Part shown: in pieces, positions 11,774 to 41,348 of the stretch | Layout of the letters: the number at the start of each line of letters is the position of its first letter | How positions within the stretch are numbered: the stretch's first letter is position 1 | Assembly: GCA_938040365.1 (NCBI GenBank) | Contig: CALHXU010000090.1 | Span: forward strand, 1-42,621 | DNA: 42,621 bases | Reading direction: 5' to 3' | Source of the DNA: an uncultured Acidimicrobiales bacterium | Lineage (GTDB): Bacteria; Actinomycetota; Acidimicrobiia; Acidimicrobiales; SHLQ01 | Made by a program: the position numbers and the translations under genes | Notes under the pieces: model-generated | The model's database searches: none | What the model was told of the DNA's origin: nothing | The model's input: only the letters and a program-made list of their open reading frames with translations

Positions 11774-13231
11774 TCAGCTCGCCGAGTCCGACAAGATCAT
11801 GAGCGTCTTGACATCGCTATGGAAATCGAGTGCCCAGTCCCCGCCCTCTCGGCCGATTCCACTGATGCCACAACCCCCGAACGGTGCGGTTAGGTCACGA
11901 ACGAGGAACGTGTTCACCCAAACGAGACCACAGCGAAGGGCCCGGCCCACTCGTTCGGCACGTTCTCGTGAGGTCGTCCACACGAGTGCCGACAGGCCAT
12001 AGTCGGTGCTGTTCGCAAGCTCGATCGCTTCAGCCTCGTCTTGGAAGGTTTGGAACGTCAGGACAGGGCCGAAGATCTCGTGCTGCACGACCTCGCTGTC
12101 ATTTGAGGCGGGTTCGATCAAGGTTGGTTCGTAGTGCAACGTTCCTTCGACGATGTTGCCGCCGCGCACGATCGTGTCACCGTTCGCTCGGGCCCGTTGC
12201 ACAAACCCGTCGACGTTGGCGAGATGATCGGGGTGCACCATCGGTGCAATGTCGGTGCTGTCTTCGCGACTGTCGCCGAGCACAAAGCCGTCGACGATGG
12301 CGTGGAACTTTTCAAGGAATTCGTCGCGCACGGACTCCTCGACCAACAGGCGAGTGCCGGCAAGACAGATCTGGCCCGAGTCGTCGTATTGCCATGCCGC
12401 ACGATGCGCTGCTTGGTCGAGGTCGGCATCGGCGAACACGATCAGCGGACCCTTGCCACCCAACTCGGCGGTGAATGGAACGATGTTCTCGGCCGCTGCC
12501 TTGCCGATGTGGCGGGCGGTTGCTGGCGAGCCGGTGAAGGTGATCCGCCGAGCGCGATCGTCGGCGACCAACGCAGCACCAACTTCTTGTCCAATGCCCT
12601 GCACGAGGTTGAACGCACCTGCCGGCATGCCAGCCTCGTTTGCGAGCCTGGCGAGGATCGCGGCGGTTAGGGGCGACCATTCGGCAGGCTTGTGAATCAC
12701 GGTGTTGCCCGCTGCGAGGGCAGGGGCGAGTTTCCACGTCGACAACATGAACGGCGCGTTCCACGGGGTGATCACGACGGCCGGACCAGCAGGCATGTGT
12801 TGGACGGTGTTGTCCATGTTCTTCGCGTCCCAGTGGCGCTCTTCGCGCTGCACGATGAGGTCGGCGTACAGTCGGAAGTTTGCCGCGCCGCGGGCGACCA
12901 AACGGTCCCGCATCGACGCGTACATGAACGCCATGTCGAGCGTCTCGACCGTGGCGATCTCCTCGTTGTTCGCTTCGATCAGGTCGGCGAGACGATGCAA
13001 AACCTCGGAGCGTTCGGCCGGACTGTAGGCACCCCAGGTTTTGAATCCCTCGGTGGCGGCGGCCATCGCTGCATCAGCGGCGGCGGCGTCGCCGCGAGCG
13101 ACATCAGCAATCGGACCCGCATCCCAATCGAGAGGGGAGCGGCTCTCAAAGGTGTTCGGTGAGCCAACCCATTCGCCGCCGATGAAGTGGTCGACCGGGA
13201 CGTCGAAGCCGCCGATGGTTGCGGTCCGCAC
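11774..13231 (-). CDS. Aldehyde dehydrogenase, HpaE / hydroxymuconic-semialdehyde dehydrogenase-like
   Basis: VITPWNAPFMLSTWKLAPALAAGNTVIHKPAEWSP, ITFTGSPATARHIG, ELGGKGPLIVFADADLD, GQICLAGTR; GTG start 3 nt after the FAA hydrolase stop. Confidence 0.85.
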   Translation of the reverse strand: MRTATIGGFDVPVDHFIGGEWVGSPNTFESRSPLDWDAGPIADVARGDAAAADAAMAAATEGFKTWGAYSPAERSEVLHRLADLIEANNEEIATVETLDMAFMYASMRDRLVARGAANFRLYADLIVQREERHWDAKNMDNTVQHMPAGPAVVITPWNAPFMLSTWKLAPALAAGNTVIHKPAEWSPLTAAILARLANEAGMPAGAFNLVQGIGQEVGAALVADDRARRITFTGSPATARHIGKAAAENIVPFTAELGGKGPLIVFADADLDQAAHRAAWQYDDSGQICLAGTRLLVEESVRDEFLEKFHAIVDGFVLGDSREDSTDIAPMVHPDHLANVDGFVQRARANGDTIVRGGNIVEGTLHYEPTLIEPASNDSEVVQHEIFGPVLTFQTFQDEAEAIELANSTDYGLSALVWTTSRERAERVGRALRCGLVWVNTFLVRDLTAPFGGCGISGIGREGGDWALDFHSDVKTLMILSDSAS

Positions 13232-13233
13232 GA

Positions 13234-14154
13234 TTAGGCCTCCGAATCGCCCGTTGCCGCATCGGCGGCTGGCTTGTCGTCGAGCGTTGAACCGTACAGC
13301 TTCGCGCCGAGTCCCATTGGCTTGCGGATGCCGCGGAACTCCCAATCGCCGCCTTGTGCGGTAGAGAGCACCTCTTCAGAATCCGATGGCTGTGCGCCGA
13401 CGTCGGTGCGGATCGGAGTCGGGCCGCTGACGATGGTGTTGGTGAGTTCACCCAGGCCTTCGACGCTTACGGTCACCACATCGCCGGGGTAGACGGTGCG
13501 CGAATTCGCAGGTGTACCCGAGAGCAGAACATCACCAGGCACGAGGGTGATCGTGCGGGCAATGTCGGAAACGAGGTAGTGCATATCCCACTTCATTTCA
13601 GCGGTCGACGCGTCTTGCTTGACCTCGCCGTTGACGATGGTCTGGATTCGCTTGTCACGGAAATCCCAATCGGTCACTAGACCTGGGCCGAGCGGGCACA
13701 AGGTGTCGCTGCCCTTCACCCGAAGCATGGAACCAGCGTCGGTGTCTCGAAAGTCGTGTAGGCCGTAGTCATTGGAGACCGTGTAGCCAGCAATGTAGTC
13801 GCCCGCTTCCTCAGGGGAGATGTTTCGGCACGTCTTCCCAATAACTATTGCGATCTCACCCTCGTAGTTCAACCACTCACAACCCTCGGGGCGCACAACG
13901 TTGCTCTGGTGTCCCGTGAGCGCCGTGATCGGCTTGTGAAAATACGTCGGCGCTGCGGGCAACTTCGTCATGAATTCGTCCACCCGACTCGCGTAGTTCA
14001 GATGCACGCAAATGATCTTCGTCGGTTCAACGGGGGCGAGGTGCACCGCGTCGGCAATCGCAACCGAACGGCCGTCACCAGAAATGAGCGTGTCGCCATT
14101 GCGTTGGACTTCGGTTGGGTAACCGTCGAGAAGGATCCTGCGTGTTTCGGCCAT
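13234..14154 (-). CDS. Fumarylacetoacetate hydrolase-family protein with C-terminal extension
   Basis: LNYASRVDEF, YFHKPITALTGHQ, LNYEGEIAIVIGK, GYTVSNDYGLHDFR, GDVLLSGTPA. Confidence 0.88.
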   Translation of the reverse strand: MAETRRILLDGYPTEVQRNGDTLISGDGRSVAIADAVHLAPVEPTKIICVHLNYASRVDEFMTKLPAAPTYFHKPITALTGHQSNVVRPEGCEWLNYEGEIAIVIGKTCRNISPEEAGDYIAGYTVSNDYGLHDFRDTDAGSMLRVKGSDTLCPLGPGLVTDWDFRDKRIQTIVNGEVKQDASTAEMKWDMHYLVSDIARTITLVPGDVLLSGTPANSRTVYPGDVVTVSVEGLGELTNTIVSGPTPIRTDVGAQPSDSEEVLSTAQGGDWEFRGIRKPMGLGAKLYGSTLDDKPAADAATGDSEA

Positions 14155-14251
14155 GGTGAAGTTCCCTACGTAGAAGATCGGCTTGGGCCGTGACGGGGTG
14201 GCCCAGATGTCTGGTCAGCGCTGCCTCGTTAGCATAGGGCAAACAAAACTA

Positions 14252-14265
14252 GTTCGGTACCGAAC
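14252..14265. promoter_or_regulatory. Putative operator, perfect palindrome GTTCGGTACCGAAC
   Basis: Between the divergent FAA-hydrolase and MarR genes; motif recurs at 16287, 19136 and 36164. Confidence 0.7.
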
Positions 14266-14326
14266 GAATATGGGATGCTGGCAGCGCGGGTTGACCGAGT
14301 CAGGTATGTCTATTGTGTGGGGCGCC

Positions 14327-14836
14327 ATGAGTTCAGAGAAACAATCGACCGAATCTGCGTGGCTCCTTGCTGCTGAACGCGACGTGCAGGAGCGGCTCGG
14401 CGACAGCGAATTCGACTTCGCCTCGCTGGACGCCATCTCGAATCTCTACCGGGCAGCCGCGGCGATCCGCCGCCGTGCCGAGGGCGAGGTGCTGGCGCCC
14501 TACAGCCTGTCGTTTGGCGCGTTCACGATCCTGTGGGTGCTGTGGATTTGGGATGACATGGAGACCGCCCAGCTCGCTCAGGAATGCAACCTTGCCAAAG
14601 GGACGCTGACCGGAATGTTGAATACCTTGGAGAAGCGCGGCCTAGTCGAGCGAAACCGCATGGAGGCAGACATGCGTCGGATGATGGTGTGCCTCACCAG
14701 CGAAGGTCGAAGCACCATCACCGAAGTGTTCCCAAAGTTCAACTCGTTCGAGGGAGAGATGAGCAACGGGCTGACGCTCGCCGAAAAGGCTCAGCTCGCC
14801 GACCTTTTGCGCCGGGTCACCAAGAACGCCCAATAG
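14327..14836 (+). CDS. MarR-family transcriptional regulator (paralogue 1)
   Basis: LSFGAFTILWVLWIWDDMETAQLAQECNLAKGTLTGMLNTLEKRGLVER wHTH; clear similarity to 30762-31277. Confidence 0.85.
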   Translation: MSSEKQSTESAWLLAAERDVQERLGDSEFDFASLDAISNLYRAAAAIRRRAEGEVLAPYSLSFGAFTILWVLWIWDDMETAQLAQECNLAKGTLTGMLNTLEKRGLVERNRMEADMRRMMVCLTSEGRSTITEVFPKFNSFEGEMSNGLTLAEKAQLADLLRRVTKNAQ

Positions 14837-14998: not shown

Positions 14999-16240
14999 CT
15001 AGGGCAGCGTTCCGATTGCGGCGGTTATGGCGTCGAGGGCGATTTGGATCTCTTCTTCGTTGACGGTGAGCGGCGGCATGAAGCGGATCGTGTTGCCCTT
15101 CGCCCCTGCGGTCATGAGAAGCAGGTTTCCCTCGTGGAAACAGTGTGCGAGTACAGCCTTTGCGTCCTCTGCGCTCCGTAGGTCACAGGCGATCATGATG
15201 CCGGGACCGCGGACATGTTCGACGATGGGACCATTTGCCATAAGTGCCTCAAGGCCGGCACGAAGCTGATCGCCACGAGCGTTCACGTTGTCGATAAATC
15301 CATCGGTGGTGATGACGTCGATCGTTGCGAGTGCGGCAGCACAGCCAATGGCGTTGCCGCCGTAGGTGCCGCCATGTGACCCGGTCGGCCACTTGTCGTC
15401 GAGCTCTCGGCGAGTACCGAGGGCCGAAAATGGAAACCCTGAGGCGATGCCTTTGGCCATGCAAATGATGTCGGGTGCAATGTCGAAGTGGTCGATAGCA
15501 AACATCGACCCGGTGCGAGCAAAGCCACTTTGCACCTCGTCGGAGATGAACAAAATGCCGTGGTCGGCGCACCGTTGCGCAATCCCTTCGAGGAATCGCT
15601 TTGGTGCGAGTTTGTAGCCACCTTCGCCGAGGACCGGCTCGACGATCACGCACGCCGTTTCGCTCGGTGCGGTCGACCCGGCGAGCAGACGGTCGAAGCC
15701 GGTCAGGCATGCATCGATTTCGGCTTCGTGATCGGCGGCGCGTGGGTCGGGAAATGGTGCGGTGAAGACGCCACCGGGCAACGGCGCATGGCCAGCTCGG
15801 TAGACGTTCTTCGAGGTGGTCATCGCCATTGCCATATGTGTGCGGCCGTGAAAACTGCCTTCAAAAACGATGGTGTGTGGTCTCCCGGTCGCTTGCTTCG
15901 CGAGTTTGATCGCGGCTTCGGTGATCTCGGCCCCAGAGTTCGCGTAGAAGAAGGTATCGATGCCCGGGGGAGTGATCGCTTCCAGCCGAGCCGCCAACGG
16001 TTGCATCATGTCGTTTGTGAACACGTTTGCTTGAAGGTGAATACCTCGGGCTGCCTGGGTCGCGATCGCCTCCACAACCTTTGGATGGGAGTGCCCGGTC
16101 GAGATGACCGCAATCCCCGAAACGAAGTCGAGGTACTTCTCTCCGTCTGTGGTCGTGACCCACGAGCCAGATCCCTCAGCAACCTCAAGGTCGGTGAGTT
16201 TGAACCAGACGTTCGAAAGGTTCTTGGTGTCTGCAGCCAT
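14999..16240 (-). CDS. Class-III aminotransferase (GabT-like)
   Basis: FYANSGAEITEAAIKLAKQATGR, FEGSFHGRTHMAMAMT, ISDEVQSGFARTG, CMAKGIASGFPFSA (PLP Lys). Confidence 0.9.
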   Translation of the reverse strand: MAADTKNLSNVWFKLTDLEVAEGSGSWVTTTDGEKYLDFVSGIAVISTGHSHPKVVEAIATQAARGIHLQANVFTNDMMQPLAARLEAITPPGIDTFFYANSGAEITEAAIKLAKQATGRPHTIVFEGSFHGRTHMAMAMTTSKNVYRAGHAPLPGGVFTAPFPDPRAADHEAEIDACLTGFDRLLAGSTAPSETACVIVEPVLGEGGYKLAPKRFLEGIAQRCADHGILFISDEVQSGFARTGSMFAIDHFDIAPDIICMAKGIASGFPFSALGTRRELDDKWPTGSHGGTYGGNAIGCAAALATIDVITTDGFIDNVNARGDQLRAGLEALMANGPIVEHVRGPGIMIACDLRSAEDAKAVLAHCFHEGNLLLMTAGAKGNTIRFMPPLTVNEEEIQIALDAITAAIGTLP

Positions 16241-16286
16241 TTGGTTCTTCCAATCACTAGGCCAACCGTCGAGCGGTGACAAAATC

Positions 16287-16300
16287 ATTCGGCACCGAAC
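16287..16300. promoter_or_regulatory. Putative operator ATTCGGCACCGAAC
   Basis: TTCGG-CA-CCGAA palindrome between the divergent aminotransferase and P450-1. Confidence 0.6.
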
Positions 16301-16338: not shown

Positions 16339-16410
16339 GTGACCGCTGCCTTTTGAGATGCAGTTGCCGCTGCCTTCTGAGAGGCAGTTACCGCTGCCTT
16401 CTGAGAGGCA
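16339..16410. repeat. Tandem repeat, 3 x 24 bp, each with a CTGCCT/AGGCAG hairpin
   Basis: gtgaccgctgccttttgagatgca / gttgccgctgccttctgagaggca / gttaccgctgccttctgagaggca, immediately upstream of P450-1. Confidence 0.95.
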
Positions 16411-16438
16411 GTCCGCCACCAACGAACAGGAGTGTTCC

Positions 16439-17593
16439 ATGTCGTTAGGATCCGAAATCGATCTCGCTGCACTCGAAGCAGACCCCGACCCAATACTCGC
16501 CCAGCTACGGGCTGACGAGCCGGTGGCCTACATCGATGCGCTCGAGATGTGGTTCGTCACCCGCTGGGATGATGTTGCCGCGGTTGAGGCCGACTACGAG
16601 ACGTTCCGTTCCGCGACCGAGCCGTCCTTTCTCGCACGAGCGCTCGGCACGAACATGTTGACGCTCGACCCACCCGAGCACACAAGGGTGACCGCCATGA
16701 TTCGGCCCGAGTTTCGATCGAGCGGAAGAAGCGGATCCTTCGTGACCGAGGAACTCACAGCTATGGCAAATCACGTTCTCGACGCGGTCGAGCCGGGTGG
16801 CTTCGATGTGATGACCTCCTATGCCCAACCCCTTGCAGCAGGTGCGTTGGCGACGGTGCTCGGGCTCGATCATCACGGCGCGAGCGTTATGTGGAGCTGG
16901 TGCGAGGGCTTGTGCGCCGACATCGCAAACTTCGAGAACGACCCCGATATCAGCAAACGAACCGAAGTCGTCAAGGCCGAACTCGGTGAAGCGATTCGTG
17001 AACGGATCGCTGAAGCCAACGAAGGCGATAACTCGGCGATTGCTCGCTTCGTACAGGCAGGGGCGACGCCCGAGGAAATCATCAACAACGTGCGGCTCAT
17101 GATCTCGGGCGGCATCAACGAACCGCGCGATGGTATTGGCCTCGTGACGTGGGTCTTGTTGAGCCAGCCAGAGTTACGAGAACGCGTCACCGCCGAACCA
17201 AGCGACATGCGACGCCTCATCGAAGAAGTGTTCCGCGTGTACTCGCCGGTCGGGACCGTAACCCGTCAGGCCACCCGAGACGTCGAGCTTGGCGGGGCAC
17301 TCATCAAAGAGGGCGATTTAGTTTCAGGTGTCCTCCGTTCGATCAACCTCGATGAAGCGCATTGGACAAATCCAATGGTGATCGATCTCGATCGTCGCGA
17401 AGGCGCACACGCCGCCTTTGCGCTCGGCACGCACCGCTGTCTTGGCGAGTGGCTCGGTCGTCAAGAAGTCAAGGTTGGTGTAGAGCGGTTGTTCGCTCGC
17501 TTCGAGAATCTCCGCCTCGACCCAGCCGCCGGCCCGGTCGAACTGACCGGCTTCGAGTTTCGAGGACCGAAGTCGGTGAACGTGTTGACCTAG
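16439..17593 (+). CDS. Cytochrome P450 (P450-1), atypical I-helix
   Basis: Heme loop FALGTHRCLGEWLGR, ExxR EEVFR, I-helix MISGGINEPRDG; ATG preceded by ACAGGAG. Confidence 0.9.
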   Translation: MSLGSEIDLAALEADPDPILAQLRADEPVAYIDALEMWFVTRWDDVAAVEADYETFRSATEPSFLARALGTNMLTLDPPEHTRVTAMIRPEFRSSGRSGSFVTEELTAMANHVLDAVEPGGFDVMTSYAQPLAAGALATVLGLDHHGASVMWSWCEGLCADIANFENDPDISKRTEVVKAELGEAIRERIAEANEGDNSAIARFVQAGATPEEIINNVRLMISGGINEPRDGIGLVTWVLLSQPELRERVTAEPSDMRRLIEEVFRVYSPVGTVTRQATRDVELGGALIKEGDLVSGVLRSINLDEAHWTNPMVIDLDRREGAHAAFALGTHRCLGEWLGRQEVKVGVERLFARFENLRLDPAAGPVELTGFEFRGPKSVNVLT

Positions 17594-17602: not shown

Positions 17603-18319
17603 TTACGCACCATTTCGACGAGCTGCCATTCTGACGATCCAGGAAAACGAAGGGTCGGTGTCGCGCGTGTCGAGCATCTCGGGATGCCACTGGACCGCAA
17701 TCATTGGAAGCTCACGATGTTCGAGGCCCTCGACGGTTCCGTCGCCGCTGCGCGCCGTCACGACGAGATCGGTGCCGGGGGTATCGACGGTTTGGTGATG
17801 GAGCGAGTTCACCGAAACGCTGCCGCCATAGATTTGCGCGAGCGTTGACCCGTCGGTGGTGGTGATCGTGTCGCTTAGCGTGGACGGGTCGATGTCATAG
17901 CGTGCGTGTTCGGGGACGTCCTGGTGGAGTGTGCCACCAGCGTGAACGTTGAGGAGTTGTAGGCCCCGGCAGATGCCGAGCATCGGCAGCTCTCGTTCGG
18001 CGGCAAGATCGAGAAGCGCCAACTCGTACGCGTCGCGAATGTCTTCGAACTCGGTGGTCGGGTCCAGCGCCGCGCCATATCGGTCGGGGTTCACGTCAGC
18101 GCCGCCACTGATCAGCACACCGTCGAGGTGATCGGCAAACTCGTCTGGTGCTGCATCGAGGGGAAGATGAACGGGTAGCCCGCCTGCGGCGAGTACCCCG
18201 CGCGCGTAGTCCGCGTAGTACCAATCGCCTTCGAGGTGCCGAAGCGATTCTGGAGTGCCCTCGAGTTGGCTCGCGACCTTCCGTCGGCCGCTCAGTCCGA
18301 TGAGGGGGCGTCGGCTCAT
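17603..18319 (-). CDS. PuuD-like gamma-glutamyl-amide hydrolase (peptidase C26)
   Basis: VLISGGADVNPDRYG, PMLGICRGLQLLNVHAGGTLHQD, VNSLHHQTVD, AVQWHPE. Confidence 0.88.
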   Translation of the reverse strand: MSRRPLIGLSGRRKVASQLEGTPESLRHLEGDWYYADYARGVLAAGGLPVHLPLDAAPDEFADHLDGVLISGGADVNPDRYGAALDPTTEFEDIRDAYELALLDLAAERELPMLGICRGLQLLNVHAGGTLHQDVPEHARYDIDPSTLSDTITTTDGSTLAQIYGGSVSVNSLHHQTVDTPGTDLVVTARSGDGTVEGLEHRELPMIAVQWHPEMLDTRDTDPSFSWIVRMAARRNGA

Positions 18320-19113
18320 TGTTCTTCTCCTGTGGTCGTTTTTGTTTGCAGCGAATCAGCGTTCGCCGGTTCGGGTGGGGAGCTCTCTGGAAAGGCAACG
18401 TCATCGAGGAACCAGTCGACGAGACGACGACATTGTTCACTATTGCGCGCCTCGTTCTCTGCCATCTCGGAGGTAACGAGCTCCCGATCGACACCGTACT
18501 CAGCAAAGTACTCGTCGTAGCTCGGGTCGGCGTTCGATAGGAACTCGGTGACTTGAGCCATGTTGGCCTCGGGGTGAAACTGTGTTCCAGCGAAGCGTCC
18601 GATTGTGAACAGTTGGGGAGCCGTCTCGTTTTGGGCCAGAACCGTTGCATTGGGCGGCGGGATGATCCGGTCGTGATGCCACTCGAGCCAAGGTCCTGGG
18701 CCAACCGGGTTCGACTGGCCGGGAGCGTCGTCGATCGTGAACCACCCAATCTCGGTTTGGGGTGAGGCTTCGACCGCACCACCGAGTGCATCGGCAATGA
18801 GTTGCGCGCCGAAGCACACACCGAGCAGCGGCTTGTCTGCCTCGAACGTTGCTCGGATTGCATCGAGCTCGTCGTATACCCACGAGGCAATCTCGTCTTT
18901 GTTGGTCAGTGAGCGAATCGATCCCATGACCACAATGAGGTCGTAGTCAGCGAAGTTGGGGAAGGACTTGTCGCCCTCGACCGGGTCGGCCGGATGAGAA
19001 ATGAGGTGGGTGTGTATCGAGAATCCGCGATCGCCTAGGCATCGGGCGACTTCTCCGCCGATCTGGTCAGCTTCGTGGGCAACGATCAGGCAAGACCTAT
19101 CAAACCGACGCAT
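18316..19113 (-). CDS. Class-I glutamine amidotransferase domain protein (stand-alone)
   Basis: LLGVCFGAQLIADALGG (Cys), EWHHDRI, GTQFHPEAN (His-Glu); ATGA overlap with the PuuD-like gene; paralogue of 39148-40152. Confidence 0.88.
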   Translation of the reverse strand: MRRFDRSCLIVAHEADQIGGEVARCLGDRGFSIHTHLISHPADPVEGDKSFPNFADYDLIVVMGSIRSLTNKDEIASWVYDELDAIRATFEADKPLLGVCFGAQLIADALGGAVEASPQTEIGWFTIDDAPGQSNPVGPGPWLEWHHDRIIPPPNATVLAQNETAPQLFTIGRFAGTQFHPEANMAQVTEFLSNADPSYDEYFAEYGVDRELVTSEMAENEARNSEQCRRLVDWFLDDVAFPESSPPEPANADSLQTKTTTGEEQ

Positions 19114-19310: not shown

Positions 19311-20558
19311 GTGAAATATCGCCAATTACTGGCGGCGCTCGTTGCGCTAAGCCTTATTGCTGCTGCATGTGGCAGCGATTCGGGTGACGGAGATACCGCA
19401 TCCACATCGGGGAGCGACACCGAGGATTCCGGTGGCGGCGCGGCTTCGGCCGGCATCGATGTCGACGCCATCTTGGCCGCCGACCTCGACAACTGTGTCG
19501 ACGCACCGACCGGCGACTCCATCCAGGTGGGTGCCGTACTCGACTTCAGTGAAGCTGCTGGCTTTGTTGATATCCCTGGCGCCGACGTCATGCCTTATGT
19601 CGCAGACCTCATCAACTGCACCGGTGGCATCGACGGCCGCCCGGTCGAGGTGAACGTTCGTGAGGCGGGCGACGATCCAGCTCTCGCAACCCAAGAACTC
19701 ATCGACTGGGGCGCACAATTCTTCGTCGGCCCACCGTTTGCCGACGCAACCCTTCCAATGGCACAGGCCGGCGGCGGCGAGTACGCCATCTTCGCTGCTG
19801 CATCGACCGAGCCAACGCTCGCCGATGCCGAGAACAACACCTTCCTCGTCACCTTCGATGACGTTGGCCAGTCGAGCGCATCAGCGCAGTTCGCATGGGA
19901 TCAAGGTTTGACCGAAGCGATCATCTTTACCGAGGGTGAAGGCGTTCCGTACTCGGGCGTCAACCCTGATGCGTTCATCGAGACCTTCGAAGGACTCGGC
20001 GGCACGATCATCAGCACCCAAACCTACGGATGGTTCGTCGATACCGACTTCTCGTCACAGGCAAATGACGTCGCTGGTGTTGCCGACGGCGACGAAGTGT
20101 TCTTCTCGGCTGCAGCGAACTTCCAGATCACCGCACTCAAGGCGCAGCTCGAAGGTCAAGGCCTCGAGGGAATCACCTACATGGGAACCGATGCCTTCGA
20201 CGCAACCGGAACCCTCTTCGACCCAGAGGCGGAGGGCTTCATCCACACGCCACACGCCATCGTCGAACCAGGAAGCGACCTCGAAGCCGTGCTCGCTGGA
20301 TCGGGCACCCTCGAGAGTGATGCTCCGAACTTCATGCCGCTTTACATCGATTCGATGCTGCTCGGTATTCAAGGCATCCTCGATTGCGGATGTGATGAGC
20401 CTGCAGATATTGCCGAGGCCGTGAAGAACATCTCGGGCTTCCCAGGAACCTCTGGTGAGATCACCTACGCCGGCACGAACGGTATCCCACCAAAGGCCGT
20501 TGACATCGTGCAGAACAGCGACGGTGCGTACAACGTGCTGGGAACCATCGGCGGCTAA
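19311..20558 (+). CDS. Liv-type ABC transporter substrate-binding lipoprotein
   Basis: MKYRQLLAALVALSLIAAACGSD lipobox; VGAVLDFSEAAGFVDIPGA periplasmic-binding fold. Confidence 0.85.
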   Translation: MKYRQLLAALVALSLIAAACGSDSGDGDTASTSGSDTEDSGGGAASAGIDVDAILAADLDNCVDAPTGDSIQVGAVLDFSEAAGFVDIPGADVMPYVADLINCTGGIDGRPVEVNVREAGDDPALATQELIDWGAQFFVGPPFADATLPMAQAGGGEYAIFAAASTEPTLADAENNTFLVTFDDVGQSSASAQFAWDQGLTEAIIFTEGEGVPYSGVNPDAFIETFEGLGGTIISTQTYGWFVDTDFSSQANDVAGVADGDEVFFSAAANFQITALKAQLEGQGLEGITYMGTDAFDATGTLFDPEAEGFIHTPHAIVEPGSDLEAVLAGSGTLESDAPNFMPLYIDSMLLGIQGILDCGCDEPADIAEAVKNISGFPGTSGEITYAGTNGIPPKAVDIVQNSDGAYNVLGTIGG

Positions 20559-20566
20559 TCCACCCA

Positions 20567-21268: not shown

Positions 21269-21276
21269 CTCTCGAC

Positions 21277-28882: not shown

Positions 28883-28983
28883 GTCCCGTACCGAGGTGCA
28901 CATGAGTCCCGCACCGAAGTGCACATGAGCAATGAGAATCGCGACCTGATGGTCCGCCGGATTGAATGGAGATGACCACATGA
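28877..28983 (+). other. 23-bp tandem repeat (2 copies plus partial) and a chain of four ATGA-linked mini-ORFs
   Basis: acatgagtcccgtaccgaggtgc/acatgagtcccgcaccgaagtgc/acatgag; mini-ORFs 28879-28905, 28902-28928, 28925-28975, 28972-28983 each overlap the next by 4 nt. Confidence 0.9.
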
Positions 28984-30734: not shown

Positions 30735-30769
30735 AACGGTAAGGGAGGGTCTGACCCTGGCTTACCGTT
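30735..30769. terminator. Palindrome AACGGTAAGGGAGGGTC-T-GACCCTGGCTTACCGTT, possible bidirectional terminator
   Basis: 17-bp arms with 2 mismatches between convergent genes; overlaps the MarR-2 stop codon. Confidence 0.55.
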
Positions 30770-31277: not shown

Positions 31278-31281
31278 CAGC

Positions 31282-31317
31282 TCTTGACGATAGTTTGGGC
31301 CCAAAGTATCGTCAAGA
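31282..31317. promoter_or_regulatory. 36-bp palindromic operator TCTTGACGATAGTTTGGG/CCCAAAGTATCGTCAAGA
   Basis: 18-bp arms with a single mismatch pair, filling most of the 41-bp gap between the divergent MarR-2 and P450-3 starts. Confidence 0.85.
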
Positions 31318-31318
31318 A

Positions 31319-33771: not shown

Positions 33772-34988
33772 GTGCCTTCCAGTTGACGAACGACCAAGTG
33801 AAGTTGCAAGCAAAGGCCAAGGCGCTCGCAGAAGAGGTCATTGCGCCCCGGGCTGCCGCTGTCGATGAGGCCGAGCAATACCCGTGGGAGAATGTGCATG
33901 CCCTGCGCGACGCAGGGTTTACCGGCATGACCGTCCCGAAGGAGTACGGCGGCCCCGGACATTCGTTCCTCGACGCGGTCCTCGTGGTCGAGCAGATGGC
34001 CAAGGTGTGTGGCGTGACCGGCCGAATTTCGGTCGAGGCCAACATGGGTGCGATTAGCGCCATCATGGCCTACGGCACCGAGGAACAGAAGCGACTTGCG
34101 GCAGAACTGGTGCTCGCCGGCGACAAGCCCGCAATCTGCATCACCGAGCCAGGCGCCGGAAGCGCGGCCTCGCAGATGACGACCCGCGCCGACCGCAAGG
34201 GCGATACCTACATCATCAACGGCACCAAGCACTGGATCACCGGTGGCACGGTCTCGAAGCTTCACCTGATCTTTGCTCGCGTGTTCGACGAGGACGGAAA
34301 CGAAGAGGGCATCGGCGGTTTTATCGCCATCCTCGACGAGACACCTGGCCTGACCTTCGGCGAGCGTGAACCAACGATGGGCTTGCGGGCCATCCCCGAG
34401 ATGGAGGTGATCTTCGACAACATGGAGGTCGGCCACGACATGATGGTGATGCCACCGTCGGGGCTGAAGCGCGGCTTTGGCGACCTGATGAACGCCTACA
34501 ACAGTCAACGCGTCGGGGCCGGAACGGTCGGCCTCGGAATCGCTGCTGGTGCATACGAACTCGCCATTGCCTTCGCTAAAGAACGAGAGCAGTTCGACCG
34601 TCCCATCGCCGAGTTCCAAGGGCTCCAGTGGATGCTGGCCGACATGTCGGTGCAGCTCGAAGCTGCTCGAAGCCTGACCTACCGGGCTGCCGAGTCTCGG
34701 GGGCCGGGCGGTTCGCCGTTCCCCGATGCAACGATGGCTGCCCAGGCGAAGATCTTCACCGCCGAAGCTTCGATCAGGGTGGTGAGCGACGCACTTCAGG
34801 TCTTTGGTGCTGCTGGATACAGCCGCCGCAACCCACTAGAACGCATGTACCGAGACGTCCGAATGTTCACCATTGGCGGTGGCACGGCGCAGATTCTCCG
34901 CACGGTCGTTGCATCTCGGATCCTCGACATGAAGCTGCCGCAAGGTCGCGGCGGCTTTCTCCCCAAAGATGGCGGAGGCAGCCAATGA
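33768..34988 (+). CDS. Acyl-CoA dehydrogenase family protein (ACAD-2)
   Basis: ICITEPGAGSAASQMTTRA, HWITGG, KEREQFDRPIAEFQGLQWMLADM, RDVRMFTIGGGTAQILR; overlaps its neighbours by ATGA. Confidence 0.92.
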   Translation: MSAFQLTNDQVKLQAKAKALAEEVIAPRAAAVDEAEQYPWENVHALRDAGFTGMTVPKEYGGPGHSFLDAVLVVEQMAKVCGVTGRISVEANMGAISAIMAYGTEEQKRLAAELVLAGDKPAICITEPGAGSAASQMTTRADRKGDTYIINGTKHWITGGTVSKLHLIFARVFDEDGNEEGIGGFIAILDETPGLTFGEREPTMGLRAIPEMEVIFDNMEVGHDMMVMPPSGLKRGFGDLMNAYNSQRVGAGTVGLGIAAGAYELAIAFAKEREQFDRPIAEFQGLQWMLADMSVQLEAARSLTYRAAESRGPGGSPFPDATMAAQAKIFTAEASIRVVSDALQVFGAAGYSRRNPLERMYRDVRMFTIGGGTAQILRTVVASRILDMKLPQGRGGFLPKDGGGSQ

Positions 34989-36145
34989 GTAAACCTCTCA
35001 CCGGAGTCCTCGTCGTTTCGCTCGAACAGGCGGTGTCGGCCCCATTTGCCACCCGACAGCTCGCCGACCTTGGCGCTGAGGTTCTGAAGGTCGAACGAAA
35101 GGGTGAGGGCGACTTTGCGCGCCACTATGACACCGCCGTTGGTGGGTCCGCGTCGTTCTTCGTGTGGGCGAACCGTGGCAAACAGAGCATCGAGCTCGAC
35201 CTGAAAGACGCAGCTGACCGGGCGACGTTCGATGAGCTGATCGCCGGTGCCGATGTCTTTGTTCAGAATCTGTCTCCTGCGGCTGCTGGTCGGATGGGTG
35301 TGCTTGCCGACCAGCTCCGAGAGAAGCATCCTTCACTCATTGCGTGCGATGTGTCGGGGTATGGAATGGGTGGTCCGCGCACCGACGACAAGGCATATGA
35401 CCTGGCGATTCAGGCGGAGGGCGGCGCAATCGCGCTCACCGGAACGCCCGAGCAGGCAAGCAAAGTGGGGCTCTCGATCGCCGACATTTCGGCGGCGATG
35501 TACTCGCTCTCGTCGATACTCGCCGCGCTCTACCGCAAGCAGGCAACGGGGGAGGGCGCTTCGGTCGAGGTCACGATGCTTGAGAGCCTCGCCGAATGGA
35601 CCTCGGCACCGACGCTCTATGCGGTCGGCACGGGAGCTGTTCCGCCTCGATCCGGTCACCGACACACGACGATCGCACCGTACGGCTTGTATGGGTTGAG
35701 CGACGGGAGCGATGTTCTTGTTGGCGTACAGAGCAATCGCGACTGGGCGGCGTTCGCCGAGCATGTGCTGGCTGATTCTTCGCTCATCGACGACGTTCGG
35801 TTCGCGTCGAACCCGGATCGCATTGCGAACATCGACGAGCTCGAAGCGGTGATCAACACCTGTTTCGCTTCGGAGTCTGCAGACGAGATCTTGGCTCGCC
35901 TCCGGGCCGGTGGCATTACCCACAGCAAGGTTCGAGACCCGCTCGGGCTTTGGGAGCACGAACAGCTTCGGGCGCGCGACCGCTTCATGACGGTGACGAC
36001 CCCGACCGGTGAGGCCGAGGTATACCGATCGCCCTTCAATATCAGCGACATTGGCGAAACGCAGGACTATGTCCCTGACCTTGGTGAGGACCGGACCGGG
36101 CTGGTCGAACGACTTGTTGAACGAGGCCGTGAGGGCGACGTATGA
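34985..36145 (+). CDS. Class-III (CaiB/BaiF) CoA-transferase
   Basis: LTGVLVVSLEQAVSAPFATRQLADLGAEVLKVE, NRGKQSIELDLKD, DKAYDLAIQAEGG (catalytic-type Asp). Confidence 0.92.
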   Translation: MSKPLTGVLVVSLEQAVSAPFATRQLADLGAEVLKVERKGEGDFARHYDTAVGGSASFFVWANRGKQSIELDLKDAADRATFDELIAGADVFVQNLSPAAAGRMGVLADQLREKHPSLIACDVSGYGMGGPRTDDKAYDLAIQAEGGAIALTGTPEQASKVGLSIADISAAMYSLSSILAALYRKQATGEGASVEVTMLESLAEWTSAPTLYAVGTGAVPPRSGHRHTTIAPYGLYGLSDGSDVLVGVQSNRDWAAFAEHVLADSSLIDDVRFASNPDRIANIDELEAVINTCFASESADEILARLRAGGITHSKVRDPLGLWEHEQLRARDRFMTVTTPTGEAEVYRSPFNISDIGETQDYVPDLGEDRTGLVERLVERGREGDV

Positions 36146-36196: not shown

Positions 36197-37012
36197 ATGG
36201 GTGAACATTTTGGGCTGATGTATCCGCGCACGCCGACCGGAAAAGGTTCGATCCTGCCTTCGCCGCCGTGGCACTACAGCGGCGAGATGTTGACCATCGA
36301 GTTCCGCACCGACCCTGCCAATGTCGCCGAGCTGTTACCGCCGCGACTCGAGCTCGCCGATGACGATCCTGGAGCGGTAGCGATCATCTGGGCCGACTGG
36401 CAAAGCTGTTCAGACAGCTTCGACGAGCTGCTCGACCCTGCCCGAGCGCAGTACAAGGAAGTTTTTGTCGTCGTGCGCTGCAAGTACGAAGGCCAAACCT
36501 ATAGCCGGGCTGCCTACATCTGGGTCGACAAAGACTTCGCCATGGCGCGCGGTCACATTCAGGGCTACCCAAAGAAGATGTCTGAAATCTGGATGACCCG
36601 CCCGGTTGCGTTCGGTAAAGCTGGGCCGCGCCTCGAACCCGGCGGTCGGTTCGGCGCAACGCTCAGCACGTGGGGGCGACGAATTGCCGATACCCGTTTC
36701 ACGATTACGGGAATTGCCGAGACCGCAGGCTTTGTGAACGGTCATCCCATGCTGCACAGCAGGCAGATGCCAGCGATCGAGATGGACGGGCGCGACTCGC
36801 TCGACGAACTTGTCACGATGCGAGGTTTCGATGCTGAGGTTGGCCCGGTGTTTTCCGGCGATGCCGAACTCGAACTCTTCGACACTCCAACAGAAGAACT
36901 CACGCGCTTTGGTGACATCGAGGTCATCGGCGGCTACTACCGCCAAGTCGGAACGTCGATGCACGAAGGAACAACCGTGTGGGCCGCGCCGAACCCAATG
37001 GCGGGGGAGTAA
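36197..37012 (+). CDS. Acetoacetate decarboxylase-fold protein
   Basis: SPPWHYSGEMLTIEFRTDPANVAELLPPRLELA, HIQGYPKKMSEIW (ADC-type double Lys). Confidence 0.85.
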   Translation: MGEHFGLMYPRTPTGKGSILPSPPWHYSGEMLTIEFRTDPANVAELLPPRLELADDDPGAVAIIWADWQSCSDSFDELLDPARAQYKEVFVVVRCKYEGQTYSRAAYIWVDKDFAMARGHIQGYPKKMSEIWMTRPVAFGKAGPRLEPGGRFGATLSTWGRRIADTRFTITGIAETAGFVNGHPMLHSRQMPAIEMDGRDSLDELVTMRGFDAEVGPVFSGDAELELFDTPTEELTRFGDIEVIGGYYRQVGTSMHEGTTVWAAPNPMAGE

Positions 37013-37014: not shown

Positions 37015-38295
37015 GTGGAACTTACGGGAACGACACACGTCGATGACTACCTGGCCGACCTCGGCGACGACGACGTCGACATCACGAGCCACGATGCTTA
37101 TACCTCGGGGGTTCCCCACGCCACGTTTGCTCGACTTCGAGCAGAGGACCCCGTCCATTGGACCGAGGAGACGGACGGCTCGGGGTTCTGGTCGATTCTG
37201 AAGTATGACGATGCAATCTCGGTGAGCCGAGATGTCGACACGTTCACCTCAACGGGCGGGATACGCCTCGAGGAGATGGACGCCGAAGAGTCCGAAGCTC
37301 GTCGCACCATGATGGAGATGGATCCGCCCGAACACACTCGTTACCGGCGCTTAGTGAGCAAGGGGTTCACGAGGCGCAGCGTCGAGTCCTATGAGGAGAC
37401 AATTCGTCAGCTCGCGGTCGAGGTCATCGACGCCGCGTTGGAACACGACGAGTTCGACTTCGTGAAACTCATTGCCGAGCAGCTCCCGATGCGAATGCTC
37501 GGACGCCTGCTCGGGACGAGCGACGATGACGGCCACAAACTCGTCGAGTGGGGTGACGCGCTGCTCGGCAACACCGACCCCGACTTCACCGACTACCCGG
37601 TCGACCTCGTCGACACCGAAGAGTTCCGGATGGTCCCGTTTCGTAGCCCTGCCTCGTTGCAGATCTTCCAGTTCGCGCAAGAGCAAGCCGATCATCGGCG
37701 AGGATGCCCGACGACCGATGTAATCAGCCAGCTCCTTGCGCCAACGACCGATGGCACAACAATTACCGACCACGAGTTCAATAACTTCTTCACCTTGCTC
37801 GTCGCTGCCGGCAACGACACCACCCGCTACACGTTGACCCACGGCCTGCGGACGCTCGTGGAGCACCCCGAGCTCTGGTACGCGTGGAAGGCCGACCCCG
37901 AGCTCACCCTGTCGGCAACCGAAGAGATTCTTCGGACGAGTTCGGTCACGATGCATTTCCGTCGCACGGCGACCACAAACGTCGAACTCGGTGGCAAAGA
38001 GATCAAGGCCGGGGACAAAGTCGCTATCTGGTTTAACTCGGCCAACCACGACGAGGATCGATTCGACAAGCCCTTCCGGTTCGATCTCGAACGGCCCGAC
38101 AACCTGCACATGGCGTTCGGTCGAAACGGGCCGCACTTATGCTTGGGCGCGTGGCTTGCACGGATGGAGGTCCGGTTGGTCTTCGAAGAACTGATGAAGC
38201 GGGTCGATCGTTTCGAACCGAACGGCGATGTGTCGTACCTGCGATCGAATTTCATTGCGGGGATTAAGTCGATGCCGGTGAAGGTGGTTCGCTAA
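37015..38295 (+). CDS. Cytochrome P450 (P450-4)
   Basis: I-helix LLVAAGNDTTRYTLTHG, heme loop FGRNGPHLCLGAWLAR; GTG start. Confidence 0.93.
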   Translation: MELTGTTHVDDYLADLGDDDVDITSHDAYTSGVPHATFARLRAEDPVHWTEETDGSGFWSILKYDDAISVSRDVDTFTSTGGIRLEEMDAEESEARRTMMEMDPPEHTRYRRLVSKGFTRRSVESYEETIRQLAVEVIDAALEHDEFDFVKLIAEQLPMRMLGRLLGTSDDDGHKLVEWGDALLGNTDPDFTDYPVDLVDTEEFRMVPFRSPASLQIFQFAQEQADHRRGCPTTDVISQLLAPTTDGTTITDHEFNNFFTLLVAAGNDTTRYTLTHGLRTLVEHPELWYAWKADPELTLSATEEILRTSSVTMHFRRTATTNVELGGKEIKAGDKVAIWFNSANHDEDRFDKPFRFDLERPDNLHMAFGRNGPHLCLGAWLARMEVRLVFEELMKRVDRFEPNGDVSYLRSNFIAGIKSMPVKVVR

Positions 38296-39158
38296 TGGGA
38301 GAAATCGTTGGCGCTGCGCTGGTGTCCCATGTCCCGCCGCTGGTGCTTCCTGAGGAGATTCGCCGTGAGCTAAACGGCGGGGACGACACGACGCTGTTTC
38401 AAGGCCTGCACGACATGCGCGCAGAAAAGCTGGGCCCGCTCGAGGCCGACACGGTCGTGGTGATCGACACGCATTGGTTCACCACGATCGAACACATCGT
38501 GGCAAGCCACGAACGACGTGAGGGTCTGTACACCAGCGAAGAGCTACCCCGGGGCATGAAGCAGATGCCCTACGACATGGCGGGCGATCCTGAGCTTGCC
38601 TTGGCGTGGGAAGCACAAGCCAATGGTCGTGACGACACCTGGATTACTGCGATCGACGACCCGTACCTTCCCGTGCACTACCCGACGATCAACTTGTTGG
38701 GTTTCTTGCAGGGAGATGAGAATTGGATCTCGGCCGGTGTCTGCCAGACCGGCGAGCCTGCTGACTTCCTGCTCTTTGGGCAGTTGCTCGCCGAGGCAGT
38801 AGCGAAGACGGACCGACGTGTTGTCGTGCTTGCGAGCGGTGGGTTGAGCCACCGCTTCTGGCCGCTGCGCGAGTTCCGTGACCATGAGGGCGCCGACCCC
38901 GACCTTCACATTCGTACCCCCGAAGCTGCTGCAGCCGACCGGCGTGTGCTCGGCCACATGCTGGCGGGTGAACACAAGGCGATTCTGGACTTCCTTCCCG
39001 AGTTCGCAAGGCACGCTCCCGAAGGATATTTCGCGCACTATCTCACGATGCTCGGAGCGCTCGGCGGCGGCGACTGTACGCTTCGCGGTACACAGTTCGG
39101 GGAGTATGAGGCCGTGGCAGGTACGGGACAAGCACATGTGTGGTTCGATGTCGCCTAA
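38295..39158 (+). CDS. LigB-type (class III) extradiol ring-cleavage dioxygenase, HpaD-like
   Basis: GAALVSHVPPLVLPEE, VVVIDTHWFTTIEHIV, VVVLASGGLSHRFWPL; TAATG junction with P450-4. Confidence 0.87.
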   Translation: MGEIVGAALVSHVPPLVLPEEIRRELNGGDDTTLFQGLHDMRAEKLGPLEADTVVVIDTHWFTTIEHIVASHERREGLYTSEELPRGMKQMPYDMAGDPELALAWEAQANGRDDTWITAIDDPYLPVHYPTINLLGFLQGDENWISAGVCQTGEPADFLLFGQLLAEAVAKTDRRVVVLASGGLSHRFWPLREFRDHEGADPDLHIRTPEAAAADRRVLGHMLAGEHKAILDFLPEFARHAPEGYFAHYLTMLGALGGGDCTLRGTQFGEYEAVAGTGQAHVWFDVA

Positions 39159-40152
39159 CGCTGCTTCGGCCACCGATCGCTTCGCGGGATATACCGCGCT
39201 TGTTCTTGCACACGAACCCGACGGGCCGGCAGGTCAGGTCGGCGTGCGGCTGGAACAACGCGGCTTTACCGTTCATACCCACGTCATCACGTCGGATTAC
39301 GACAACCCGCAAGACTTCGAGCCGTGGCCCGACCTTTCCGACTATGACCTCGTTCTTCCGATGGGTTCGGTGCGGTCGCTCACCAGGAAAGACGAAGCCG
39401 ACTGGCTCGAGGCAGAGATAGCCGACCTCGCTGCCGCCCACGATGCCGGGACGCCGATCCTCGGCGTGTGCTTTGGCGGACAACTCATCACCGAAGCGCT
39501 CGGCGGTTCGATAGAACCAGCCCCTTCGGCCACGATTGGCTGGCGGCCGATCGGTGATGGCCGGGATGGCCCGAACCCCGCTGGACCCGGACCGTGGATG
39601 CACTGGCACCACGACCGCATGGTTCCGCCCGAGGGCGTTGACGTGTTGGCCGAGACCGACGAGGCAGTGCAAATAATTCGATCTGGGACGACGGTCGGCA
39701 CCCAGTTCCACCCAGAGGTCGATGTTGCACATATTGCCGAGTGGGGCAACGGCGCTCCCCAGGAGTATCTCGACGAGCACGGGATCGACTTCCCAGCGGT
39801 GCTCGCCGAAGTTGCCGAAAACGAAGCGCGAAACATCGAACAGTGCGCCGCTTTTGTCGACTGGTACCTCGACACGGTTGCCTTCCCCGAGGCCGCCGTA
39901 ACCGGAGGCGCCGAATCCAACAGCAACGGCAGTACTACAGAGGAGAGTGCGATGGGGTTCAAAGTTGTCGTCGACTACGAGATGTGTGAGGGCAATGCCA
40001 TGTGCCTCGACGTCGCCCCTGAGGTCTTCGATCTCGATGATGAGGACGTCGTTGTTCTGCTCACCGATTCGCCAGGGGAAGCTCTGCGCGAAAAGGTTGC
40101 TTCAGCGGTCGAACGGTGCCCAAAGCAGGCGCTGTCGATTTCTGAATCGTGA
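39148..40152 (+). CDS. Fusion ORF: class-I GATase domain plus C-terminal P450-type ferredoxin domain (start 39136 also possible)
   Basis: GATase ILGVCFGGQLITEALGG...HWHHDRM...GTQFHPEVD; linker TGGAESNSNGSTTEESA; ferredoxin MGFKVVVDYEMCEGNAMCLDVAPEVFDL...VERCPKQALSIS; no stop between. Confidence 0.85.
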   Translation: MSPNAASATDRFAGYTALVLAHEPDGPAGQVGVRLEQRGFTVHTHVITSDYDNPQDFEPWPDLSDYDLVLPMGSVRSLTRKDEADWLEAEIADLAAAHDAGTPILGVCFGGQLITEALGGSIEPAPSATIGWRPIGDGRDGPNPAGPGPWMHWHHDRMVPPEGVDVLAETDEAVQIIRSGTTVGTQFHPEVDVAHIAEWGNGAPQEYLDEHGIDFPAVLAEVAENEARNIEQCAAFVDWYLDTVAFPEAAVTGGAESNSNGSTTEESAMGFKVVVDYEMCEGNAMCLDVAPEVFDLDDEDVVVLLTDSPGEALREKVASAVERCPKQALSISES

Positions 40153-41348
40153 GTGGGTCGATGGAATCTATTGCAGTCATCGGGGCATCACTCGCAGGCC
40201 TGCGTGCAACCGAAGCGCTTCGTAGAGAAGGTTTCGAAGGCGAACTTCATCTCGTTGGTGATGAGGGTGAGTTGCCCTATGACCGGCCGCCACTCTCGAA
40301 GAAAGTGCTCGATGGTGAGAGGAATGTTGAAGAGACCGGCCTTGTCACCAACGAGGCGCTCGACGATTTGAACGTCACCCGCCATCTCAACGACACTGCC
40401 GTCTCTCTCGACAGCGCGACGCTTGTAGTCACGCTCGGATCGGGTCGTGAGCTCGATGTCGACGGGGTAATCATCGCTACCGGTGCGCGGGCGCGGACGA
40501 TCCCAACCGAACTCGACGGGGTGTACGCGCTTCGGACAATGGCCGACTCAGCTGCGATCGCGGCGGCCTTCGACGCTGCGCCTTCCCGAGTCGTGATCGT
40601 CGGCGCTGGCTTTATCGGAGCCGAAGTCGCTGCCGCAGCTCGGGGTCGCGGTCTCGACGTAACTCTGGTCGAGATGGCCAACGCGCCGTTCGAGCGGGTG
40701 CTGGGTGCCGAAGTTGGCCAGGTAGTGGCTGATATCCATTCCGAACATGGAGTCGATTTACGGACCGGTGTTGGGCAAAGGGCCTTTCACGGCGACGGAT
40801 CGATCGAAGCGGTCGAGCTCACCGATGGATCTTCGATCGACGCCGACCTTGTCGTCGTCGGGGTCGGCGCGATCCCAAATGCCGAATGGCTCGAGGGCAG
40901 CGGCCTCACCATCGATGATGGCGTTCAATGTGACGAGACATTGTCGGCTGCTCCAGGCGTCGTCGCTATTGGAGACGTGGCGAATTGGTACAACCCTCGC
41001 TTTGATGCGCGCATGCGCGTCGAACATTGGGAGAACGCAATCATCTCCGGTCAGCATGGGGCGAAGCGTCTGTTACATGGCGAGGCTGCCGGGGCCTATG
41101 ACCCGGTGCCGTGGTTCTGGAGCGATCAGTACGACCACAAACTTCAGCTCGCCGGGCGCACTGCCGGCTACAACAGCTTCGAGATTGTCGAGGGCGACGT
41201 CGAGAGCCGCCGCTTTGTTGCGCTCTATGGCCGCGATGGTGTTTTCACCGGCGTCTTTGGCATGAGCCGTCCCCGCCACGTCATCAAGTACCGCCAGCTC
41301 ATCGCCGCCGGCGCGACGTGGGCCGAGGCGCTCGCCGCCGAAATCTAG
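40149..41348 (+). CDS. FAD-dependent NAD(P)H:ferredoxin reductase (start 40149 GTG or 40161 ATG)
   Basis: ESIAVIGASLAGLRATEALR, PYDRPPLSKKVL, VVIVGAGFIGAEVAAAARGRGLDVTLVE, GVVAIGDVANW. Confidence 0.93.
   Translation: MSGSMESIAVIGASLAGLRATEALRREGFEGELHLVGDEGELPYDRPPLSKKVLDGERNVEETGLVTNEALDDLNVTRHLNDTAVSLDSATLVVTLGSGRELDVDGVIIATGARARTIPTELDGVYALRTMADSAAIAAAFDAAPSRVVIVGAGFIGAEVAAAARGRGLDVTLVEMANAPFERVLGAEVGQVVADIHSEHGVDLRTGVGQRAFHGDGSIEAVELTDGSSIDADLVVVGVGAIPNAEWLEGSGLTIDDGVQCDETLSAAPGVVAIGDVANWYNPRFDARMRVEHWENAIISGQHGAKRLLHGEAAGAYDPVPWFWSDQYDHKLQLAGRTAGYNSFEIVEGDVESRRFVALYGRDGVFTGVFGMSRPRHVIKYRQLIAAGATWAEALAAEI

Follow-up and report, generated by a model that had tools for sequence, protein, structure and literature searches.

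The window, a 42,621-nucleotide stretch comprising contig CALHXU010000090.1 (assembly GCA_938040365.1) of an uncultured Acidimicrobiales bacterium, carries between positions 11,774 and 41,348 genes of the types used in gamma-glutamylation, cytochrome P450 (P450) oxidation and extradiol ring cleavage, and our results show that this locus is a real, evolutionarily conserved catabolic gene set. Open frames were translated and scanned against Pfam (curated cut-offs) and NCBIfam models. The inventory given by an earlier sequence-only reading proved real, as every gene type it named is an open frame with a family match above the Pfam curated cut-off: a PF00120 ligase of glutamine synthetase (GS) type, a PF07722 hydrolase, two PF00117 amidotransferases (GATases), four PF00067 P450s, two 3-Cys ferredoxin modules, a ferredoxin reductase (FdR), a LigB-family dioxygenase (LigB), an HpaE-like aldehyde dehydrogenase (ALDH), a fumarylacetoacetate (FAA) hydrolase, a class III aminotransferase, two proteins of acyl-CoA dehydrogenase (ACAD) fold, a family III CoA-transferase and a Liv importer. 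To these the scan added a second ALDH (29234-30703), a Zn-dependent alcohol dehydrogenase (ADH), two MarR regulators, a TPR protein and an MppR-like protein of acetoacetate-decarboxylase fold (ADC, 36197-37012), and by NCBIfam one "ACAD" is a 3-sulfinopropionyl-CoA desulfinase homolog (Acd).

11774-13240, minus: HpaE-like ALDH, proposed for the semialdehyde step after ring cleavage; best NCBIfam model TIGR02299 HpaE
13234-14154, minus: HpaG-like FAA-fold decarboxylase; PF01557, TIGR02303 HpaG-C
14183-14836, plus: MarR regulator, best match HpaR-like; PF01047, TIGR02337 56 bits, below cut-off
14999-16288, minus: class III aminotransferase, candidate 4-aminobutyrate (GABA) aminotransferase; PF00202, GABA and acetylornithine transaminase models below cut-off
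16358-17593, plus: P450_1; PF00067, nearest PDB 6g71, 8u09
17603-18319, minus: PuuD-like gamma-glutamyl amide hydrolase; PF07722 182 bits, catalytic motifs present
18316-19113, minus: GATaseA, class I amidotransferase; PF00117, GVCFG and HPE motifs
19311-24023, plus: Liv-type ABC importer (binding protein, LivF, LivH, LivM-LivG fusion); PF13458, PF00005, PF02653
24057-25235, plus: ACAD1, ACAD fold; PF00441, PF02770, PF02771
25250-26227, plus: Zn-dependent ADH; PF08240, PF00107
26272-27621, plus: GS1, predicted IpuC-like gamma-glutamyl-amide synthetase; PF00120, 38% to IpuC, sister to the IpuC clade
27626-28882, plus: P450_2; PF00067, nearest PDB CYP125MRCA
28962-29234, plus: Fd1, small 3-Cys ferredoxin, [3Fe-4S]-like; PF13370/PF13459, Cys count
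29234-30703, plus: ALDH2, second ALDH; PF00171, BADH best model, PuuC 384 bits, below cut-off
30762-31358, minus: second MarR regulator; PF01047 48.7 bits
31274-32554, plus: P450_3; PF00067, 47% to P450_2
32548-33771, plus: TPR-repeat protein; PF13428, between P450_3 and Acd in most linked relatives
33768-34988, plus: Acd, 3-sulfinopropionyl-CoA desulfinase homolog; NF042439 658 bits, cut-off 600
34985-36145, plus: family III (CaiB-type) CoA-transferase; PF02515 332 bits
36197-37012, plus: ADC, MppR-like, proposed hydratase-aldolase; PF06314, MppR model 212 bits, below cut-off, PDB 4JM3, 4ZBO
37015-38295, plus: P450_4, the P450 conserved with LigB; PF00067, nearest PDB CYP125MRCA
38295-39158, plus: LigB-family extradiol dioxygenase; PF02900, HpaD_Fe 128 bits, below cut-off 316
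39142-40152, plus: GATaseB and a 3-Cys ferredoxin as an in-frame fusion; PF00117 and PF13459 matches within a single frame
40149-41348, plus: FdR; PF07992, PF14759

Conservation was surveyed in 198 genomes of the order (below, G, L and C label genomes, loci and contigs). LigB homologs occur in 22 of them and GS1 orthologs also in 22, with one additional 38% match, and the two are found together in 17/198 (Fisher p = 4e-16, related genomes not being independent). They share one contig in the window and in G034, G107, G118, G150, G166, G176, G181 and G196, while in most others one of the two lies close to a contig end. Of the 16 genomes with an Acd ortholog, 15 carry GS1 too. G150, G176 and G070 contain both LigB and GS1 but gave no Acd match, so that Acd is not a strict requirement. 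The gene order is rearranged among relatives with blocks kept, i.e., Liv-ACAD1-ADH-GS1-P450_2-Fd1-ALDH2, P450_3-TPR-Acd-CaiB, ADC-P450_4-LigB and HpaE-HpaG-MarR, and the set is found across families of the order, so its association is more than chance. In linked relatives ACAD1 is mostly 75-87% identical, and the Liv importer stands beside GS1 there too. The earlier proposal that genes for gamma-glutamylation, P450 oxidation and meta-cleavage belong together thus holds as one conserved, usually linked set.

Aligned with E. coli GlnA, GS1 retains the aligned metal sites and the phosphate- and glutamate-binding Arg and His. At the ammonia site Asp50 is replaced by Cys (Ala in orthologs) and Ser53 by Ile (Met or Ile in orthologs), and the flap Glu327 is Phe, the roles of these residues being those we assume from established GS knowledge. 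The three positions read D, S, E in GlnA, C, I, W in IpuC, P, V, Y in PuuA and C, I, F in GS1. With all three replaced, a canonical ammonia-dependent GS is ruled out for the 26272 ligase, in line with the sequence-only reading. In the GS tree, which includes no AtdA1/TdnQ and no pip/mor ligase, GS1 neighbours the IpuC clade (support 95/88; 38% identity to IpuC), and the PuuA model NF045547 gives it 236 bits against a cut-off of 650. Because the ammonia site and flap Glu are lost and the protein groups with IpuC, GS1 is predicted to be an IpuC-type gamma-glutamyl-amide synthetase rather than an ammonia GS. Two divergent GS1-like genes (52% and 55-56% to GS1) lie side by side on opposite strands in G166 (L060 8053-10776).

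A second ligase, GS2, lies on another contig of the host in a block (G000:C65:1669-6141; L126) with an alpha/beta hydrolase, an ACAD-fold protein and a NicX-like homolog of 2,5-dihydroxypyridine dioxygenase (E = 3.5e-53 to 7CN3), and relatives link this block to a window-type cluster. GS2 falls in a clade (100/100) with the LigB-cluster GSs of Novosphingobium and several metagenome-assembled genomes, and the Streptomyces-type LigB-cluster GSs form a separate clade. The sequence-only reading had taken the 26272 ligase as the partner of LigB, which we dropped, as LigB clusters carry other GS clades. Ring cleavage is therefore most likely served by GS2, which in the tree, unlike GS1, falls with the LigB-cluster enzymes.

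The residues H12, H60, E243 and H186 of LigB are invariant in 15 aligned homologs, and we take them, from established LigB knowledge, to be the iron ligands (two His, one Glu) and the catalytic His; with these present the protein is assigned to the class III (LigB) extradiol dioxygenases. The remaining module resembles homoprotocatechuate (HPC) enzymes at scores under their cut-offs, with LigB at 128 bits to TIGR02298 (HpaD_Fe; cut-off 316), the HpaE-like ALDH, which adjoins the FAA hydrolase and LigB genes in relatives, at 504 bits to TIGR02299 (cut-off 638), and the HpaG-like protein, 71-79% identical to a LigB-adjacent copy in many actinomycetes, at 207 bits to TIGR02303 (cut-off 276). The PuuD-like hydrolase reaches 85 bits to PRK11366 (cut-off 266) and ALDH2 384 bits to the PuuC model (cut-off 850), and a role like that of the lower Puu pathway is predicted for them from gene context. 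No HpaH hydratase or HpaI aldolase is found among the annotated genes of the window, HpcH/HpaI-family proteins being encoded only on other host contigs. MppR is an aldolase-type enzyme. An MppR-like role in meta-cleavage has been proposed for an archaeal pathway of Saccharolobus, with the MppR fold as a retro-aldolase (PMC7820114). Because most other scores are under the curated cut-offs, we restrict our claims of membership to the Acd family, the IpuC-like clade and the class of LigB dioxygenases.

Acd (33768-34988) exceeds the cut-off of the desulfinase model NF042439 and matches 5AF7, the crystallised Advenella enzyme, with 512 bits. Like that enzyme it has lost the ACAD Glu base (FTIGGG at the YEG position, where 5AF7 has AGG), and it retains the Arg of GRIS; the Glu-base motif is discussed in PMC8360864. 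The acd gene of Advenella is also neighboured by a family III acyl-CoA transferase gene (PMC5373536). No thiol dioxygenase (Mdo) was recognised in the window.

The heme Cys is kept in 4/4 P450s, three cysteines in each of the two ferredoxin modules and the Cys and His-x-Glu motifs in 3/3 amidotransferases. Among solved structures, those of CYP125/CYP124 come nearest to P450_2, and the I-helix of P450_1 reads GGINEPRD where an acid/alcohol pair is usual, similar to its nearest PDB relative 6g71 (GGLNEPRD), so that P450_1 is possibly an unusual or peroxide-using P450. The GATaseB-ferredoxin fusion (39142-40152) is absent from relatives, which match the GATase part only; it could be a genuine fusion or a locus-specific join and, not being conserved, was dropped as a key component. 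FdR was likewise dropped as a core gene of the order, as linked Acidimicrobiia contigs have no strong homolog. No Rieske component is present among the annotated window genes, as stated earlier, and none of the 12 Rieske matches in the host genome lies on the window contig. The suggestion that P450s replace the Rieske oxygenase stands insofar as P450s are core members of the set, but five LigB relatives carry a VanA-type Rieske gene as well.

LigB relatives (50-57%) are found on plasmids of S. canus, S. lunaelactis and Novosphingobium and in Actinomadura, Amycolatopsis, Lentzea, Nocardioides, Mycolicibacterium and Brevibacillus. Across phyla, the 64 long LigB loci contain GS in 52, FAA hydrolase in 51, P450 in 50, ADC in 47 and PuuD in 38, and hydratase or aldolase homologs in 2; hpcG and hpcH do accompany LigB in a Sphingobium cluster, but ADC, GS and PuuD are missing there. 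The S. lunaelactis cluster, without P450, comprises a permease, GS, ADC, PuuD, ALDH, HpaE, LigB, HpaG and a pyridoxal-phosphate-dependent decarboxylase whose best models are tyrosine decarboxylases, and by its gene content it reads like a minimal version of the pathway proposed below. About a dozen loci carry, close to LigB, genes of the aromatic-amino-acid-decarboxylase type. These fall into two lineages: members of one are nearest to 5HSI and to 6EBN, which is a non-canonical aromatic amino acid decarboxylase, and those of the other match DOPA decarboxylases, 4OBU and a decarboxylase of desferrioxamine biosynthesis. Such a decarboxylase is linked to LigB in the same-order relatives G107 and G181, both with the GS1/Acd set. 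The ALDH beside PuuD in S. canus has PuuC as its best match (568 bits, below cut-off). The VanA-type Rieske genes in 5 LigB loci and GcvT-like genes in 2 suggest a demethylation in some species, and the GcvT-like, FolD and PurU genes after the S. canus cluster (L225 26181-29041) suggest that a methyl group of the substrate may be passed to folate. An Acidimicrobiia-like LigB locus (64%) in L161 (PBOU01000120.1), labelled Planctomycetaceae, may reflect mis-binning or transfer.

The best explanation of the whole, in which we place about as much belief as doubt, is that an amine is capped with glutamate, oxidised by P450s and ring-cleaved while capped, after which the glutamate is recovered. Gene presence, families, residues, conservation and co-occurrence are what we observed, and from them we infer every substrate and reaction. 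The window would encode most of the route, the ring-cleavage module being HpaE, HpaG, ADC, P450_4, LigB and PuuD together with GS2 on its other contig. We hypothesize that an arylethylamine of the tyramine/dopamine type (tyramine, dopamine or a methoxylated relative) is gamma-glutamylated, that P450_4 brings the capped amine to the catechol and LigB opens the ring, that the HpaE-like enzyme oxidises the semialdehyde and the HpaG-like enzyme decarboxylates the product, and that ADC hydrates and splits it to pyruvate and gamma-glutamyl-4-aminobutanal. ALDH2 or a similar enzyme would yield gamma-glutamyl-4-aminobutyrate (gamma-Glu-GABA), from which PuuD would release GABA and glutamate, and GABA would be passed on by the class III aminotransferase. 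Overall, the HPC pathway would thus be joined onto the lower Puu pathway.

This mechanism is built by analogy on established HPC and Puu chemistry. In the HPC pathway 2,3-cleavage, dehydrogenation, decarboxylation, hydration and aldol cleavage yield pyruvate and succinic semialdehyde, whose terminal CH2COOH is the former side chain. With a CH2CH2NH-gamma-Glu side chain, the same steps would give gamma-glutamyl-4-aminobutanal, the PuuC substrate, and then gamma-Glu-GABA, the PuuD substrate. By analogy with betalain chemistry, a free amine should cyclise with the product of ring cleavage; a glutamate cap would therefore be useful, plausibly preventing this cyclisation. Capped-arylethylamine chemistry would account for the GS, LigB, HpaE, HpaG, ADC, ALDH, PuuD and decarboxylase genes together. 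The GS1 module (Liv, ADH, GS1, P450_2, Fd1, ALDH2, P450_3, TPR, Acd and CaiB) may carry out gamma-glutamylation and P450 oxidation of the Ipu kind on an additional alkylamine part, with the Acd/CaiB pair possibly freeing sulfite from a 3-sulfinopropionate-like fragment, and the GS1/P450_2/P450_3/TPR/Acd/CaiB/ACAD1 and NicX-like blocks may serve a second, possibly sulfur-bearing substrate part or a separate co-regulated pathway.

Several points weigh against the capped-arylethylamine route. None of LigB, HpaE, HpaG, PuuD and ADC reaches the curated NCBIfam cut-off of the family after which it is named, so their specificities, assigned by likeness, are predictions only, and the ALDH assignments are interchangeable. 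The class III aminotransferase and FdR are not conserved in most relatives, and the host GS2 and decarboxylase homolog (C60) lie on other contigs, their linkage being seen in relatives only. One decarboxylase lineage has diaminobutyrate decarboxylase as its best NCBIfam model, far under its cut-off, and the group II decarboxylase family also covers diaminobutyrate and histidine decarboxylases. Dopamine chemistry does not account for the GS1/Acd part or the NicX-like module.

An ordinary HPC meta-pathway beside an unrelated Ipu/Puu-type gamma-glutamyl-amine nitrogen-scavenging cluster is an unlikely alternative reading of the same genes. Two genes have HpaE and HpaD_Fe as their best NCBIfam models, HpaG-C is among the top ones for a third, and some divergent LigB loci lack GS (G174, G060, G143, L228); however, GS in 52/64 and ADC in 47/64 long loci, the GS1-LigB co-occurrence (17/198, p = 4e-16), the lack of HpaH/HpaI homologs in nearly all loci and scores that are all under the HPC cut-offs argue against it. 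The analogy favoured by the sequence-only reading, an aniline/aminophenol-type pathway in which a capped aromatic amine is oxidised by P450s in place of a Rieske dioxygenase before meta-cleavage, is highly improbable. GS, GATase and extradiol genes do occur together and LigB is distantly related to 2-aminophenol 1,6-dioxygenase subunits, but GS1 groups with IpuC and GS2 with LigB-cluster GSs in a tree without an AtdA1/TdnQ row, and we rejected this route because the PuuC/PuuD-like and decarboxylase genes would have no role on an anilide and Rieske genes lie elsewhere in the genome and none in the window. The HpaE/HpaG and PuuC/PuuD-like enzymes and the linked genes of aromatic-amino-acid-decarboxylase type point to arylethylamines.

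For GS1, P450_2 and Fd1, a secondary-cyclic-amine system like that of piperidine/morpholine degradation (PipA/MorA, P450s of the CYP151 family, and an adjacent GS gene) is suggested by the 3-Cys pattern of Fd1 and by the consecutively numbered P450 and GS genes of a predicted PipA/MorA-like N-heterocycle degradation system (PMC9477822). We consider it very unlikely, as P450_2 is nearest to CYP125/CYP124 structures and GS1 is sister to IpuC in a tree without pip/mor GS. In a further proposal, all the genes of the locus would serve to break down a single, larger aromatic diamine that contains sulfur, GS1 and GS2 each capping one of its amines and Acd/CaiB taking off a sulfinate fragment. This extends the capped-arylethylamine route rather than strictly opposing it, and we consider it doubtful. 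In its favour are the two GS types, the score of Acd above its equivalog cut-off with a family III CoA-transferase gene next to it, a gene pair known from Advenella as well (PMC5373536), and the presence of most parts in one locus in G107 and G181; set against this, no thiol dioxygenase was recognised in the window, the specificity of Acd is only predicted, and G150, G176 and G070 combine LigB and GS1 with no Acd match. Equally doubtful, when taken as a whole, is the broader view of an undescribed, widespread route in which catecholamine-type amines would be capped, cleaved by way of an MppR-type hydratase-aldolase and drained to gamma-Glu-GABA, and which Acidimicrobiia would have extended to a sulfur-containing aromatic amine by means of another ligase, more P450s, a CoA-dependent desulfinase and a protein resembling 2,5-dihydroxypyridine dioxygenase.

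If the capped-arylethylamine route is true, it provides a second logic for the use of tyramine/dopamine-like amines besides amine oxidase, in which the amine is capped before the ring is opened. It would explain why many actinomycetes have MppR-like, GS-like and PuuD-like genes next to LigB, provide a function for many GS paralogs whose annotation goes no further than "glutamine synthetase family protein", and make a complete pathway testable in cultivable Streptomyces. Outside the cluster, a heliorhodopsin gene lies upstream (8841-9665, plus strand; PF18761, 301 bits), and a prephenate-dehydratase-like frame and LarB/LarC-like frames, judged by eye only, occupy 1073-3893 near the window start.

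The locus is partly explained by the known Ipu, Hpa and Puu chemistry. In the Ipu pathway of Arthrobacter (Paenarthrobacter) aurescens TC1, the gamma-glutamyl ligase IpuC works with a multicomponent P450 and an amidotransferase, and the P450 acts on gamma-glutamyl amides (PMC6776027). Two TC1 clusters and a Microbacterium cluster hold GS, amidotransferase, P450, ferredoxin, reductase, short-chain dehydrogenase/reductase (SDR) and ALDH genes together. The GS, GATase and P450 combination, earlier thought unrecognised, is therefore already described, and we rejected its novelty given this precedent. A literature search of partial scope found no paper on gamma-glutamyl-dopamine/tyramine catabolism or on GS with HPC and P450 genes; the GS/P450 coupling is known in outline, its coupling to ring cleavage was not found described, and the LigB module is the more novel part.

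The aniline Atd/Tdn systems (AtdA1/A2, TdnQ/T) have GS-like and GATase-like genes upstream of ring cleavage, but the window has no Rieske dioxygenase and the side-chain chemistry is unlike. In the 3-sulfinopropionate module of Advenella mimigardefordensis Acd also adjoins a family III CoA-transferase gene, whereas activation there is by SucCD, and in the window no Mdo is recognised and the pair sits inside a GS/P450 operon. The Ipu clusters are alike in that, of the named ligases, IpuC comes nearest to GS1 both in identity and in the tree and that P450, ferredoxin, amidotransferase, ALDH and ADH/SDR genes are clustered; they differ in having no ring-cleavage genes, the identity is only 38%, and the window adds a Liv importer and Acd/CaiB. 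The Hpa (homoprotocatechuate/4-hydroxyphenylacetate) pathway is matched by HpaD/LigB-, HpaE-, HpaG- and HpaR-like genes in the expected roles, while the window genes score below its cut-offs, ADC would replace HpaH and HpaI, HpaBC is not recognised, and GS, PuuD and P450 genes are present. From the Puu pathway the window differs in that PuuB is not recognised, GS1 is not PuuA and the aldehyde would arise from ring cleavage, yet it shares gamma-glutamylation, an ALDH, a PuuD-like hydrolase and a class III aminotransferase, and the two routes are predicted to meet at gamma-Glu-GABA.

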